Shown here piece by piece: positions 55,271 through 64,000 of a stretch of DNA of 64,000 nt. Origin of the DNA: Algoriphagus sp. NG3 (lineage in GTDB: Bacteria; Bacteroidota; Bacteroidia; Cytophagales; Cyclobacteriaceae). The stretch is taken from positions 1,240,001 through 1,304,000 of the forward strand of contig NZ_CP139421.1 in assembly GCF_034119865.1 (NCBI RefSeq), read 5' to 3'. The number at the start of each line of letters is the position of its first letter. Position 1 is the stretch's first letter. The translations under genes and the position numbers were made by a program. A model generated the notes under the pieces. The model saw nothing but the letters and a program-made list of their open reading frames with translations. It was not told the DNA's origin and searched no databases.

Positions 55271-55278
55271 TACTTTTG
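55271..55278 (+). promoter_or_regulatory. Candidate -7 box of TonB-receptor operon
   Basis: TACTTTTG fits TAnnTTTG and lies 22 bases before the ATG at 55300. The -33 position has only TTTA. Confidence 0.45.
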
Positions 55279-55299
55279 CTGCCATTCAAACAGGAATCT

Positions 55300-57711
55300 A
55301 TGAAAGCAGCATTACCCTTACTAGTTTTTTGCGTTAGCTTTTTATTATCTATAGCTGGATTTTCCCAGACCGGGAAGGTAACGGGCACCCTGACTTTTGA
55401 GGACGGTGCCCCTGTAGCTTACGCCACTGTCTTTATCAAATCCTTGAATAAAGGAGTACTTTCAGATGAAAAGGGAAGGTACGAGTTAGCGTCTATCCCT
55501 TTTGGTAATCACCAGATCGCAGTAAGTAGTATAGAAATTCAAAAACATGATTTCAATATTACAATTGACAAGCCTAGCATCGATGTGTCAACAAAGCTTC
55601 AACGCGCAACTGAGAATGAATTGGCAGAAGTTTTAGTAAAAGGCGAATCACACAAAAGTGAAATTGAAAAATCCGGATTTGCTGTAAATATAGTAGATAC
55701 AAAAGAAGCCAGTCTGCGAAATATTCAGACAAACGAATTGTTAAATACCACCGTGGGAGTTAAAATCCGTCAAAATGGTGGACTGGGATCCGAGGTCAAT
55801 TATAGTTTAAATGGTTTGTCAGGAAATGCTGTCCGGATTTTTATCGATGGAATTCCCATCTCCGCATACGGAAACTCATTTAATCTGAATAGCATTCCAC
55901 CTGCTATGATCAAGGAAATCGAGGTGTACAAAGGGGTGGTTCCCGGACATTTGGCTGATGATGCTTTGGGAGGAGCTATCAATATTGTTCTTCAAAATTC
56001 CACACAATCAAATCTTAATGCTTCAGTTTCTTATGGTTCCTTTAATACCTTACAGGCCAGTGTCAATGGTCTGCACCGATTTAAAGAATCAGGCTTCACG
56101 GTTAAGGGATCTGTTTTCTATAATTATTCAGACAATGATTATAAGGTCTCGGGCAGAAGTGTAGTGGTAACGGGATTAGGAGGTGTGCAAACTCCGATTA
56201 CAGCCAGAAGATTCAATGATGCCTACAGATCTTCGGGGGGGATGTTTCAGGTTGGCTATACTGATGTAAAATGGGCTGATCAATTTTTAATTGGCTTTAC
56301 AGGATCCAGTGATTATAAAGAAATTCAACATGGGGCTTTTATGACCATTATGCCCTATAAGGACAGGTTTATGGAATCGGATGCCAGGCTGATGAATCTA
56401 GTCTACCAAAAGAAGAATCTTTTTACCAATGGGCTGGATGTTACTATCAATGGGTTGTATGGCAAGCGAAACCGTATGGTAAGTGATACGCAGGCATGGG
56501 CGTACAGCTGGAACGGAGAAAAGGCAATTGATTTTAGAGGCAATGAATATATGTATTCTTGGAAGTCACAGCAGGAAGGTGGCCCTACACTTGCTAGAAT
56601 AAACAGAAATGTATCCTCCATTAGAACGGGAGTATCTTATGCCATTAATAAGAATCACAGAATCATGCTTAATCATGTGTATAGTGGCATTGATCGGGTG
56701 GACACAGATCAGTTAAGATCGGTTCTGGAAAATACGTTCAGGGGAACAAGGGATTTACAAAAAAACATTGTCTCTCTAACCTATGAGCTAAGTGCTTTGG
56801 ATGAAAAACTTAGGGCCAATGTATTTGGAAAATACTATCAGCAGGAAACGATAAACATTGACCCTGAGATCAATAGAGAAACCAATGAAATAGTAGATGA
56901 TATTACACGTGCCAATAAAGTAGATGAAGGCTACGGCTTTACTGTTTCTTATGCAGTACTTCCGAATATCACCTTGTTGACTTCCGCTGAAAAAGCTGTC
57001 AGATTACCAAATGAAAGTGAAGTCTTTGGTAACGATGGGGATAATGTGGTAGCCAATCCAAGTATCAGACCAGAACTTAGCAATAACTTCAACTTAGGCT
57101 TTCGTCTAGGATCGTTCAACATAGACGGACACGACTTCACGTTTTCTTCCAATCTATTCACACGTAATATCAGAGACAGGATTGGTTTACCAATAGAGAC
57201 ATCTCTAAATATCAATGAAGAAACCATACTCTATGAAAACCAGGGGAATGGCACATCCAAAGGATTTGATGCTCAATTGGACTACACGTACAACGATAAT
57301 TTTGGATTCAATTTCAATGTTTCCCGATTTGATCTGAAAATTGTAAACAGGGGGGTAGAAATAGACGTGCCCAACACTCCTTTTTTCATCATGAATGGAA
57401 GTTTACGCTATTCATTTAAAGATTTGATTCAAAAGAGATCCAGATTGAATCTCTTTTACACCATGTATTTCACGGATGAGTTTTCATATCTGGTACCTCA
57501 GGGATCAAATACCGTAGGCGATGAATTTTTTAAGGTACCAACACAATTAGCACAAGATCTAGGACTTAGTTATGTTTTTCCGGGCAATAAGTTGGTCATG
57601 AGTTTTGACATCAAAAACATATTTGATGAAGCTGTTTTTGATAACCTCTCTGTGCAGAAACCTGGAAGGGCATTTTATCTAAAATTCAACTATATAATTA
57701 ATAACTTATAA
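55300..57711 (+). CDS. TonB-dependent receptor (XusA-like)
   Basis: 803 residues from ATG 55300 (the TTG at 55276 would add 8 residues). Signal peptide to about residue 23 (GFSQTG), carboxypeptidase-like domain (GTLTFEDGAPVAYATVFI), plug (NVVDTKEA-type segment, IFIDGIPISAYGNSF, EIEVYKGVVPGHLADDALGGAI) and a beta-barrel to the C-terminal FNYIINNL. An 18-base gap separates it from a DUF4374 lipoprotein. In Bacteroides the analogous receptor/DUF4374 pair is XusA/XusB for xenosiderophores. This is context inference. Confidence 0.9.
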   Translation: MKAALPLLVFCVSFLLSIAGFSQTGKVTGTLTFEDGAPVAYATVFIKSLNKGVLSDEKGRYELASIPFGNHQIAVSSIEIQKHDFNITIDKPSIDVSTKLQRATENELAEVLVKGESHKSEIEKSGFAVNIVDTKEASLRNIQTNELLNTTVGVKIRQNGGLGSEVNYSLNGLSGNAVRIFIDGIPISAYGNSFNLNSIPPAMIKEIEVYKGVVPGHLADDALGGAINIVLQNSTQSNLNASVSYGSFNTLQASVNGLHRFKESGFTVKGSVFYNYSDNDYKVSGRSVVVTGLGGVQTPITARRFNDAYRSSGGMFQVGYTDVKWADQFLIGFTGSSDYKEIQHGAFMTIMPYKDRFMESDARLMNLVYQKKNLFTNGLDVTINGLYGKRNRMVSDTQAWAYSWNGEKAIDFRGNEYMYSWKSQQEGGPTLARINRNVSSIRTGVSYAINKNHRIMLNHVYSGIDRVDTDQLRSVLENTFRGTRDLQKNIVSLTYELSALDEKLRANVFGKYYQQETINIDPEINRETNEIVDDITRANKVDEGYGFTVSYAVLPNITLLTSAEKAVRLPNESEVFGNDGDNVVANPSIRPELSNNFNLGFRLGSFNIDGHDFTFSSNLFTRNIRDRIGLPIETSLNINEETILYENQGNGTSKGFDAQLDYTYNDNFGFNFNVSRFDLKIVNRGVEIDVPNTPFFIMNGSLRYSFKDLIQKRSRLNLFYTMYFTDEFSYLVPQGSNTVGDEFFKVPTQLAQDLGLSYVFPGNKLVMSFDIKNIFDEAVFDNLSVQKPGRAFYLKFNYIINNL

Positions 57712-57729
57712 TCTGTTAATACTTACCAC

Positions 57730-59067
57730 ATGATGAAACAAATTTTTAAAAATTCCCAAAAACTGACTGCTATGATTTTAGCAGGCGGGCTAATGGCTGC
57801 ATGTACAGAAGATCCAGAACCAGATACAACTCCGGGTCCAATAGAAGAATCTCGGATGATCACCGTAGCGGCAGCAAGAATGGGGGATAACCCAGGTGAT
57901 GGAAATGGAGGGACACTTATTTACTCACTTAGTAGTGAGGAAGCCAAAGATCCTTCGGTATCCATAGCTCCTTTTGATAATGGTTTTATAGTACCTTCCA
58001 ACAGAACAGCCAGGCTGCAGTCTTCTGAAGATGGCAGCACCATATTTAACATTAGCTACGGTGGTGATACGGGTGGACAGTACACGAAGTACACGGTAGC
58101 AGGTGGACAAAATTTCACTCAAAATGGCACTGGAGTAAGTATTGCGCCCTATGTAGGTTCTGCGCCAAGATGGATTAAACTATTCGATGGAGACCAAACA
58201 GGGGCTGCTGTATATGTAAATACAGAAGCTCAATTTGATGATAATGACACCTATTTGCGTCACGAAGCAACCATGGGAGTTGTGACTTTGGACTTGGTAA
58301 ATTCCTCTATCATAGAATTCCAAGAAACTTCTCTAGCCTTGAGTGAAGAAGAAGAATCAAACGGCTATTATATCTCTAGAATCGACATGCCTACATTAAA
58401 TGCAGCTGGAGATAAATTATACATCGGAGCGCGTCTAAGCAAAGTAAATCCTGCAACTGGTGAATCTGATAATGGTGGGGATATTTTGGGCTCGAAGACC
58501 ATTGTGTTGGATTATCCTTCTTTGTTGAATCCAACAGTAATTACATCTGCTGTAGGATACGGAAACACCAATGGTTACCGTAGTATCAATTCTTTTGAAT
58601 ACAACGGAAGTGTTTATCAAGCGAACCAGGATGATCCCAACGGTTCGCACATCCTAAAAATTGACTCAAACAACCAATATGACGATTCATATGTGTTTAA
58701 TCTAGACGATGCTTTAGGTGTAGAAGGTGCTTATATACTTGCTTGGAGACCTGCTTCAAACGGAAAGGCAGTAATCGCTTATCGTCATGACGGGTCTGAA
58801 CAAGGAGTGGCAGGTGCCCAAGGTTACTTTGCTTTGGCCGACCTAAATGCCAAGACAGCTGTGAGGCTTGATGACATTCCTTACGAGGCAGACTTTTACT
58901 TGTTCCAATACCAAGGTTTCGTAGTGGACGGAACGGATATTTACCTTACTCAAGCTCCAGTAGGCAAAAACGGAAATATCTACGTGGTAGATACCGAATC
59001 AGGTGAGGTGACCAAAGGTGCTCAACTAGAAAACGTAGCTGGAAGTCACTATATAGGGCTATTCTAA
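57730..59067 (+). CDS. DUF4374 surface lipoprotein (XusB-like)
   Basis: 445 residues with lipobox (AGGLMAAC, Cys about 25) and an acidic tether (TEDPEPDTTPGPIEE) typical of surface export. A beta-propeller-like set of blades follows, ending AGSHYIGLF. DUF4374 includes XusB of Bacteroides thetaiotaomicron, which binds ferric xenosiderophores at the surface. It is co-transcribed with the receptor upstream. The usual third gene, a PepSY-type membrane protein (XusC), is missing here. A terminator follows at 59225. Confidence 0.88.
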   Translation: MMKQIFKNSQKLTAMILAGGLMAACTEDPEPDTTPGPIEESRMITVAAARMGDNPGDGNGGTLIYSLSSEEAKDPSVSIAPFDNGFIVPSNRTARLQSSEDGSTIFNISYGGDTGGQYTKYTVAGGQNFTQNGTGVSIAPYVGSAPRWIKLFDGDQTGAAVYVNTEAQFDDNDTYLRHEATMGVVTLDLVNSSIIEFQETSLALSEEEESNGYYISRIDMPTLNAAGDKLYIGARLSKVNPATGESDNGGDILGSKTIVLDYPSLLNPTVITSAVGYGNTNGYRSINSFEYNGSVYQANQDDPNGSHILKIDSNNQYDDSYVFNLDDALGVEGAYILAWRPASNGKAVIAYRHDGSEQGVAGAQGYFALADLNAKTAVRLDDIPYEADFYLFQYQGFVVDGTDIYLTQAPVGKNGNIYVVDTESGEVTKGAQLENVAGSHYIGLF

Positions 59068-61428: not shown

Positions 61429-61512
61429 TTTGCAATAAAACAGCATACCCTGCGATATTCGGCGTTTTAAGCTATGTTTGGGGTATGGCATCTTTTTCGT
61501 ATTAAACAGCAC

Positions 61513-61818
61513 ATGAAGGTAATAACCCAAGGATTTTCAAAACTGCCCCTGGAGCTGATCTTTTGGATCGTGAGCTTGGTTGCAGTACTCTTCCTGGATC
61601 CTCATGGTGACAGTCATTTAAGTCTCTGTCCTTTGAGCCAGTTAGGGATAGAATGGTGTCCTGGATGTGGGCTGGGCAGGTCTATGAGTCTGCTTGCAAG
61701 GGGAGAGTTTCAAGCTTCCTGGAGCATGCATCCCCTGGCCTCACTTGCCTATGTGGTTATTATCGCTCGGATCTGGCAACTTATTAAAAATTTAAAAACA
61801 ACACACAATTATGGCTAA
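61513..61818 (+). CDS. DUF2752 membrane protein
   Basis: 101 residues from ATG 61513 (MKVITQGFSKLPLELIFW). The frame also has an ATG at 61474. Two or three membrane segments. The family signature is CPLSQLGIEWCPGCGLGRSM with its CPGCG motif. Function unknown. Its 3' end overlaps the TM2 gene by 8 bases, so the two are coupled. Confidence 0.85.
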   Translation: MKVITQGFSKLPLELIFWIVSLVAVLFLDPHGDSHLSLCPLSQLGIEWCPGCGLGRSMSLLARGEFQASWSMHPLASLAYVVIIARIWQLIKNLKTTHNYG

Positions 61819-62191
61819 TGTATTAAGACATCTTCCTGAATTGGAAGGAATGGAACTGGGCTACATCCAGGGTTTGATGAAAAACATGGATGAGGATCAA
61901 GCCTCACTTTTCGCACAGGTTTACCGTGCCAGAAGAAAAGACGCCCAGATGATATTGATTTTGACACTTATTGGGTTCTTCGGGTTTGCAGGTTTGCACC
62001 GCTTTATCCTGGGACAAGTGGGATTAGGGATTCTCTATATATTGACTTTCGGATTATGTTTTATTGGGACTATCGTCGATTTGGTCAATTACAAGAGCCT
62101 TGCCTATGAGTTTAACATCAAAGTGGCTCACGAGACCATGAACATGCTGAACGCAAATTATCCGGGTGATGCCACGAACCCTACTGTATAA
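61811..62191 (+). CDS. TM2 domain membrane protein
   Basis: 126 residues. A soluble N-terminus is followed by the TM2 domain: LTLIGFFGFAGLHRFILGQ, then GILYILTFGLCFIGTIVDL. Two helices joined by a short loop with the DRF-like motif (HRF). Function unknown. In Bacteroidota it is regularly next to DUF2752, as here. Confidence 0.88.
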   Translation: MANVLRHLPELEGMELGYIQGLMKNMDEDQASLFAQVYRARRKDAQMILILTLIGFFGFAGLHRFILGQVGLGILYILTFGLCFIGTIVDLVNYKSLAYEFNIKVAHETMNMLNANYPGDATNPTV

Positions 62192-62923: not shown

Positions 62924-63631
62924 TTACCAATCATCCTCATTTTCTTCTTTTAAAGCCGCAGTGTCAAGATCATCAAACATAACCAAACCACTTTCGGAAA
63001 GTGTCAGATGAATGCTCCGGAGTTTGGTATGTATTGTCTGTAAGGTGCTAAAGTCAGGCTGTTGTACATGAAACGGAATCCTGATCAGGTTTTCGGCATC
63101 CTTGGAAAATGGTGGAGGGGGATCACTTCCCAGAAAATAAGGCCAAAGTGTTTTGCCACAGCTGTAGCCCCAGGTAGTAATCGCAAAATCCTTTTCATAC
63201 TCTTGAAGCCGTTCATTGATTTCCTCAAAAAAGTGTTCAGATTCTCCCAGTCTTAATCTAGAGCCAGCTCGGGATTTCCCTTTGGTTTTGAGGTATTTGA
63301 TCTGGCTTTTGCCCTGCTTCTGCCTGACCATATAGGCACGGAACACCTTATGATCCAGCATTTCTCCATTGTGGAAATAACCTGTGGTAGCGATCCCTGC
63401 CCGGATCATCACCAAAGCCAAGTGGAAATCATCTATTTCTTTCAAATTGCCAGATTGATCCGGTAGCGTGTGCCAGGGCAGGGATATCCGTGCCAGCCAG
63501 GAGTCTGAGTTCGATATAACCCATTGATGTTTAGGTTTTTCAAATGTTTTCGACAACCCTTTCTTCTTTGCCAGCGCTAAAAGGGCATGGTACTTTTCAA
63601 GGCTAATTAACTTTGGTTGGCCGGAATTCAT
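62924..63631 (-). CDS. VLRF1 (Vms1/ANKZF1-like) peptidyl-tRNA hydrolase domain protein
   Basis: 235 residues. The centre matches the VLRF1 domain of eukaryotic Vms1/ANKZF1: VMIRAGIATTGYFHNGEMLDH, then HKVFRAYMVRQKQGKSQ, a variable insert and SRAGSRLRLGESEHFFEEIN. In eukaryotes this domain cleaves peptidyl-tRNA on stalled 60S subunits, and its Gln (GxxQ) is essential. Here GKSQ gives Q110. No ankyrin or zinc-finger regions are present. The N-terminal 70 residues and the C-terminus (about 185-235) are not recognised. It is divergent from a HEAT-like protein with an unusual palindrome between. Confidence 0.8.
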   Translation of the reverse strand: MNSGQPKLISLEKYHALLALAKKKGLSKTFEKPKHQWVISNSDSWLARISLPWHTLPDQSGNLKEIDDFHLALVMIRAGIATTGYFHNGEMLDHKVFRAYMVRQKQGKSQIKYLKTKGKSRAGSRLRLGESEHFFEEINERLQEYEKDFAITTWGYSCGKTLWPYFLGSDPPPPFSKDAENLIRIPFHVQQPDFSTLQTIHTKLRSIHLTLSESGLVMFDDLDTAALKEENEDDW

Positions 63632-63651
63632 AGCGGGGGAGGCTTTTCAAT

Positions 63652-63667
63652 TATATTTGTACAAATA
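63652..63667. promoter_or_regulatory. Palindrome overlapping -7 box
   Basis: TATATTTG (63652-63659) fits TAnnTTTG for the plus-strand gene at 63680. It overlaps the perfect 14-bp palindrome TATTTGTACAAATA (63654-63667) between divergent starts at 63631 and 63680. Confidence 0.5.
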
Positions 63668-63679
63668 AACCGAAAAAAC

Positions 63680-64000
63680 ATGGACGAGGAAATCCAAGGC
63701 TTGATCAAGCGCATGAGTGATCCAAATGAAAAGGAGGCTTTTTATTTTGCAGATAAATTGGGTGCAAAACTGGATGAAAACTCTCTAGCTGAGGTAAGCA
63801 GCTTGGTAAGAGGGGACAATTGGGAGGTTGCATATTTGGCTTGCAGAGCGCTTTCTAAATCAAGCTTTAATGAGCAATCCCTGGATGTTATTTTTGAAGC
63901 TATTTATGACAAAAAAAACAGGCCCCACCAGGGTGCTTTTGTTCAGATTTTGGAGGAATTTGACCTAAGCCTGCGGTTTGTGGATATTTTTAGAGTCTAT
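63680..64000 (+). CDS. HEAT-like repeat protein (partial, runs off end)
   Basis: The first 107 residues are present, starting MDEEIQGLIKRMSDPNEKEA. Helix pairs such as LAEVSSLVRGDNWEVAYLAC and RALSKSSFNEQSLDVIFEAI have the HEAT/armadillo repeat pattern (W-E-V-A-Y-L-A-C-R-A-L). No signal peptide, so cytoplasmic. The rest lies beyond the window. Confidence 0.75.
   Translation, partial: MDEEIQGLIKRMSDPNEKEAFYFADKLGAKLDENSLAEVSSLVRGDNWEVAYLACRALSKSSFNEQSLDVIFEAIYDKKNRPHQGAFVQILEEFDLSLRFVDIFRVY

Follow-up and report, generated by a model that had tools for sequence, protein, structure and literature searches.

A bVLRF1-family candidate peptide release factor of Algoriphagus sp. NG3 and the retention of its family in genomes in which rqcH is undetected

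Does a small protein of Algoriphagus sp. NG3 release nascent chains from stalled ribosomes in the way of the eukaryotic factor Vms1, and if so, does it depend on RqcH? This question is raised by a gene close to the end of a 64,000-nucleotide stretch of the genome (contig NZ_CP139421.1, positions 1,240,001 to 1,304,000), the whole of which is called the window and supplies the coordinates used below. An earlier note had described the gene as encoding a stand-alone VLRF1 protein with a catalytic glutamine and had put it forward as a candidate for rescue in bacterial ribosome quality control (RQC). Judged by its sequence, the protein is a member of the bVLRF1 family, with a match far above chance. 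Sequence and structural model taken together make it fairly probable that the protein is a single-component peptide release factor, which would hydrolyse peptidyl-tRNA on the large subunit of the stalled ribosome. The open reading frame (ORF) and its parts, with the evidence for each, are as follows:

62924..63631, minus strand: bVLRF1 gene, 235 amino acids, ATG start, putative stand-alone Vms1-like release factor (ORF; Pfam; single match in the genome)
63005..63418, minus strand: VLRF1 domain, residues 72-209 (Pfam match; fold match at about residues 67-206)
63248..63352, minus strand: putative catalytic core, residues 94-128, HKVFRAYMVRQKQGKSQIKYLKTKGKSRAGSRLRL (Vms1 alignment; invariant residues; Vms1 mutants)
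63302..63304, minus strand: codon of the predicted catalytic glutamine Q110 (coordinate arithmetic; aligned with Vms1 Q295)
63434..63631, minus strand: N-terminal extension, residues 1-66, predicted to be structured (predicted local distance difference test, pLDDT; Vms1 rows of the fold comparison)
62927..62944, minus strand: acidic C-terminal tail with terminal tryptophan, residues 230-235, ENEDDW (ends of homologues; low pLDDT)

The ORF carries the motifs that had been named for it, HKVFRAYMVR at residues 94-103, GKSQ at 107-110 and SRAGSRLRL at 120-128. The earlier note had counted a profile search without a VLRF1 hit as grounds for giving up the assignment; the search gave a match of PF18826 ('Bacteroidetes VLRF1 release factor') to residues 72-209 with 103.2 bits (E=1.6e-29), the curated cut-off being 27 bits, and this is the one PF18826 match in the 5.89-Mb genome. 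The domain had been placed at residues of about 72-140, of which the start at 72 stands, but the match runs on to 209. Up to E=10, the Pfam scan of the 235-amino-acid protein revealed no domain besides PF18826, the weak matches being mostly filtered out. Membership in the sister family acVLRF1 (PF18859, NCBIfam NF041024), which belongs to the same clade (PMC6514570), was rejected because PF18859 has no match in the genome and NF041024 reached 12.1 bits (E=0.11) against a cut-off of 125.

The family and its proposed release role are already published, and the gene adds a member to it. Burroughs and Aravind (2019) named the bVLRF-1 family, its G-x-tiny-Q motif and its kinship to eukaryotic Vms1, and described it as stand-alone and mainly found in Bacteroidetes (PMC6514570; this and the other papers are cited from passages). 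The earlier statement that bacterial members are known by sequence agrees with this. It has also been suggested that these proteins are single-component release factors that are independent of other RQC parts (PMC6514570). The protein is like the published family in its 103-bit score, its G-x-S-Q motif, its occurrence in Bacteroidota and its stand-alone build, and shows no departure from it. A literature search limited to open-licence papers found no experimental test of a bacterial VLRF1 member.

At E<=1e-3, 1214 homologues were found by single-sequence search and 1549 by profile search. The G-x-S-Q motif is present in all 240 homologues listed, which are the best 120 of each search. The named relatives among the matches listed are all labelled Bacteroidota, the closest being Algoriphagus. 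Moreover, the glutamine is conserved in 35/35 order-wide loci (L001 is the window gene itself), and the residue before it is S or A in 33 of them. R103, G107 and Q110 are invariant both in alignment A1 (29/29 sequences, the window gene and 28 of the other 34 order-wide ORFs, omitting L008, L016, L021, L025, L027 and L029) and in alignment A2 (77/77, the window gene and 76 of the 240 listed homologues). A second bVLRF1 match in genome G648 (E=9.8e-4, under the cut-off) was dismissed as chance; its frame resembles an ABC-F ATPase by eye. The acidic tail ENEDDW might serve as a docking peptide. Its terminal tryptophan occurs in 120/120 of the listed closest homologues and in 62/120 of those from the profile search. 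It is missing from the members of genus g5, which is described below, and from some other relatives.

Yeast Vms1 was reached weakly by the single sequence (E=0.025, search of solved structures), and three Vms1 chains matched at E~5e-12 when a 29-sequence profile was used. The alignment is gap-free over residues 92-110 and places H94, Y100, R103, G107 and Q110 on Vms1 H279, Y285, R288, G292 and Q295, so that the residues required for release by Vms1 (R288, G292, Q295) are all present as R103, G107 and Q110. In yeast Vms1, hydrolysis activity is nil in the R288A and G292A/G293A variants, the Q295L and G292A exchanges cause strong impairment, Y285A partly impairs growth, and alanine changes at H279, H283, R284 and T286 have no effect (PMC5989216).

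From about residue 67 to residue 206, the predicted fold matches Vms1 and the middle domain of eRF1. In the structure comparison, the Vms1 rows start at model residue 7-11 and the eRF1/aRF1 rows at 65-69; the N-terminal extension is thus covered by the former and not by the latter. The mean pLDDT of ten-residue blocks is 95-97 over residues 11-70 and it is low in the C-terminal tail. As to the earlier concern that Q110 might lie far from the active-site loop, in the model it sits in the loop region that links strand 90-98 to the long helix 122-148, as expected for an eRF1-type middle domain with a glutamine loop between strand and long helix, and this region is of low confidence. The eRF1/aRF1 middle domain differs in having GGQ instead of G-x-S-Q and is about 9-14% identical when aligned by structure; the stop-codon recognition domain of eRF1 was not found in the Pfam scan. 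With Vms1/ANKZF1 (eVLRF-1), the protein shares a homologous core, the R/G/Q equivalents and the predicted fold including the N-terminal extension. However, Vms1/ANKZF1 has a zinc finger and ankyrin repeats, of which the Pfam scan of the protein found none (the Cdc48-interacting motif was not scanned for), and action free of the ubiquitin machinery is therefore proposed. No ubiquitin-based RQC is to be expected in a bacterium.

Does the factor depend on RqcH? The rqcH gene was looked for in the same genome, as had been proposed, and it is present. It encodes an RqcH of 526 amino acids in which both NFACT_N and NFACT-R score above the cut-off; residues 241-517 of this protein match RqcH chains of known structure at E~1e-23. 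The genome also has MutS2, SmpB and ArfB. Genome lists for the phylum, the order and the family were matched by hand. In the phylum sample, bVLRF1 was found in 6/392 genomes, NFACT_N in 286/392 (E<=1e-3; 281 over the cut-off) and both in 5, meaning that bVLRF1 is absent from 281 of the 286 RqcH-positive genomes. A survey gives rqcH in 404/1,956 genomes of the Fibrobacteres-Chlorobi-Bacteroidetes (FCB) group (PMC11633108, columns as read), which is fewer than here, the samples and profiles being different. The order sample has bVLRF1 in 112/341 and NFACT_N in 304/341 genomes; NFACT_N occurs in 105/112 genomes with bVLRF1 vs 199/229 without it (Fisher p=0.064, kinship ignored), a figure that is confounded by the presence of small (about 1-Mb) genomes in the RqcH-negative group. 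In the family, 50/56 genomes with bVLRF1 and 14/14 without it have RqcH (Fisher p=0.34, kinship ignored). The association is thus weak in the order and none is seen within the family.

Seven bVLRF1-positive genomes of the order yielded no NFACT_N match, namely six from genus g5, which counts eight genomes, as well as G502; hence bVLRF1 is not confined to genomes that keep rqcH. With the RqcH protein of Algoriphagus sp. NG3 as query, there was no match at E<=0.01 in these seven genomes, and hits with E=1.5e-102 and 1.7e-105 came from the other two g5 genomes. In both of the latter, rqcH adjoins a metallo-hydrolase gene; pyk lies on the other side of rqcH in G496 and, by eye, also in the genome of Algoriphagus sp. 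NG3, and for G582 the fetched stretch covers the metallo-hydrolase side. In each of the six g5 genomes without an RqcH match, 12 to 70 bp separate the pyk match from that of the metallo-hydrolase, and the fetched pyk/metallo-hydrolase stretch contains no rqcH match. The loci concerned are L119:6036-7616 and L134-L141: rqcH has the metallo-hydrolase gene and pyk as its neighbours, and it is gone from that place in 6/8 g5 genomes. RqcH tailing thus seems impossible in the six genomes. They retain bVLRF1 with a G-K/R/V/T-S-Q motif. Mean pairwise identity is 92% in its 35-residue core, 43% in the part before the core and 71% in the part after it. Each of the eight g5 genomes has MutS2 and SmpB scoring above the respective cut-offs. 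The factor is therefore kept and conserved in its core where tailing seems impossible, and the distribution in phylum and order together with this retention disfavours a strict link to RqcH. The loss of rqcH with bVLRF1 kept in one genus was not seen in the passages of the literature examined. Furthermore, genome G707 keeps bVLRF1, MutS2 and SmpB, RqcH is missing, and there is no ArfB match over the cut-off.

These data bear on what the factor might do. It could be a dedicated terminator of RqcH-dependent RQC that ends alanine tailing and frees the tailed chains, a task that falls to Vms1 after Rqc2, and the presence of RqcH in its own genome and the order-wide tendency (105/112 vs 199/229) speak for this role. 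We regard it as unlikely in view of the six genomes that keep the factor with rqcH undetected, the family counts, its occurrence in just five of the 286 phylum-sample genomes with RqcH, and the fact that in B. subtilis Pth performs the release step (PMC11317155, PMC11633108). An equally small chance is given to an endonuclease that cuts the CCA end of the tRNA. This activity has also been described for Vms1/ANKZF1 (PMC11317155, PMC12868832), and the conserved core is compatible with either chemistry; however, the invariant glutamine in a G-x-S-Q loop is a release-factor signature, and PMC6514570 favours and argues for hydrolase activity.

Direct rescue of the 70S ribosome on stop-less messages, as by ArfB, would suit a stand-alone, single-component protein whose fold is common to eRF1, which acts on the full ribosome, and it would suit G707, a genome without RqcH and with no ArfB match above the cut-off. 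It is nevertheless improbable: the Pfam scan found no codon-recognition domain, and ArfB is not replaced. Among 70 family genomes, ArfB is over the cut-off in 62, namely 52/56 with bVLRF1 and 10/14 without it (nominal Fisher p=0.045, kinship ignored), and as ArfB is commoner beside bVLRF1, these counts point to co-presence and rule out a stand-in for ArfB. Least of all do we expect a non-catalytic A-site factor, for instance one acting in hibernation or dissociation, like Balon, which belongs to baeRF-1, or like Dom34/Pelota. The glutamine is missing from Dom34 and most baeRF-1 families (PMC6514570), and here it is found in 35/35 order-wide loci and 240/240 listed homologues.

The preferred reading, a release factor that hydrolyses peptidyl-tRNA, builds on the family, the predicted fold, the conserved catalytic residues and the retention without rqcH; from these we infer ribosome binding, a 50S substrate and ester hydrolysis. 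Splitting of the stalled ribosome into its subunits, for example by MutS2, would leave peptidyl-tRNA on the 50S subunit, the probable substrate. bVLRF1 would then enter, most likely, the A site of the large subunit, and a mobile loop would bring Q110 into the peptidyl-transferase centre. There, together with R103 and G107, it would promote hydrolysis of the peptidyl-tRNA ester. The factor would work without ubiquitin machinery and without RqcH as an obligate partner. In B. subtilis, alanine addition by RqcH exposes the ester bond to Pth, which acts on it in the cytoplasm (PMC11633108; for Pth in release also PMC11317155). In contrast, the VLRF1 protein, in which the Pfam scan found no Pth domain, would act inside the peptidyl-transferase centre, and alanine tailing would therefore be optional. 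It is conceivable, at somewhat less than even chance, that such tail-independent release from the large subunit follows splitting by MutS2, in which case a lineage could drop RqcH tailing and still recycle 50S subunits, with a second ending beside Pth.

Several points weigh against this reading. Ester hydrolysis is uncertain because of the CCA cutting described for Vms1/ANKZF1. H94 is also invariant, yet its Vms1 counterpart H279 tolerates alanine with wild-type-like behaviour, and conservation by itself is thus no proof of a catalytic part. The geometry of Q110 is that of a model, as the loop is of low confidence, and GKFQ in 2/35 order-wide members falls off the published G-x-tiny-Q pattern. 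Moreover, the six g5 genomes may stem from a single loss of rqcH, and in the 35 order-wide loci no neighbour conserved beyond the family level links the gene to translation.

The gene next to bVLRF1 is transcribed divergently:

63680..64000, plus strand, running on to 64207 past the window: HEAT-repeat-like gene (HEAT_2, E=3.3e-5, 24.5 bits, under the cut-off of 27.7)

A HEAT-like gene, seen in the window at 63617-64000, is the divergent neighbour in 75/80 related loci, in which the starts of the two genes are often very close or overlapping by simple ORF calling. The same 80 loci have an HrpB-like helicase gene in 71, a TM2 gene in 65 and a DUF2752 gene in 64 cases; in the window, the DUF2752 and TM2-domain genes overlap by a few bases (61474-62191). 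Since most of these loci are labelled Algoriphagus or Cyclobacteriaceae, the neighbours are taken as synteny. Order-wide, with flanks extending no further than 1.5 kb, 11/35 loci had a match to the HEAT-like gene; all of these belong to family f1, and the match was seen in 0/14 from f58, f68 and f70. A downstream GNAT gene is common to 6/80 loci only and is not counted as part of the locus. The stretch 55276-59067 contains a TonB-dependent receptor gene with a Plug domain and, after it, a gene for a 445-amino-acid protein without Pfam match at E<=0.001; these are matched in 8 and 10 of the 80 loci, respectively (flanks up to 8 kb).

What is added here to the published family is its distribution in phylum and order samples, its retention without rqcH and the acidic tryptophan tail in relatives of Algoriphagus. 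If the proposed role is true, bacteria would own a Vms1-like route in addition to Pth, and Bacteroidota may show a simpler, machinery-free form of the eukaryotic RQC release factor. The genus in which rqcH was lost and bVLRF1 kept is a natural test of the factor's need for tailing.
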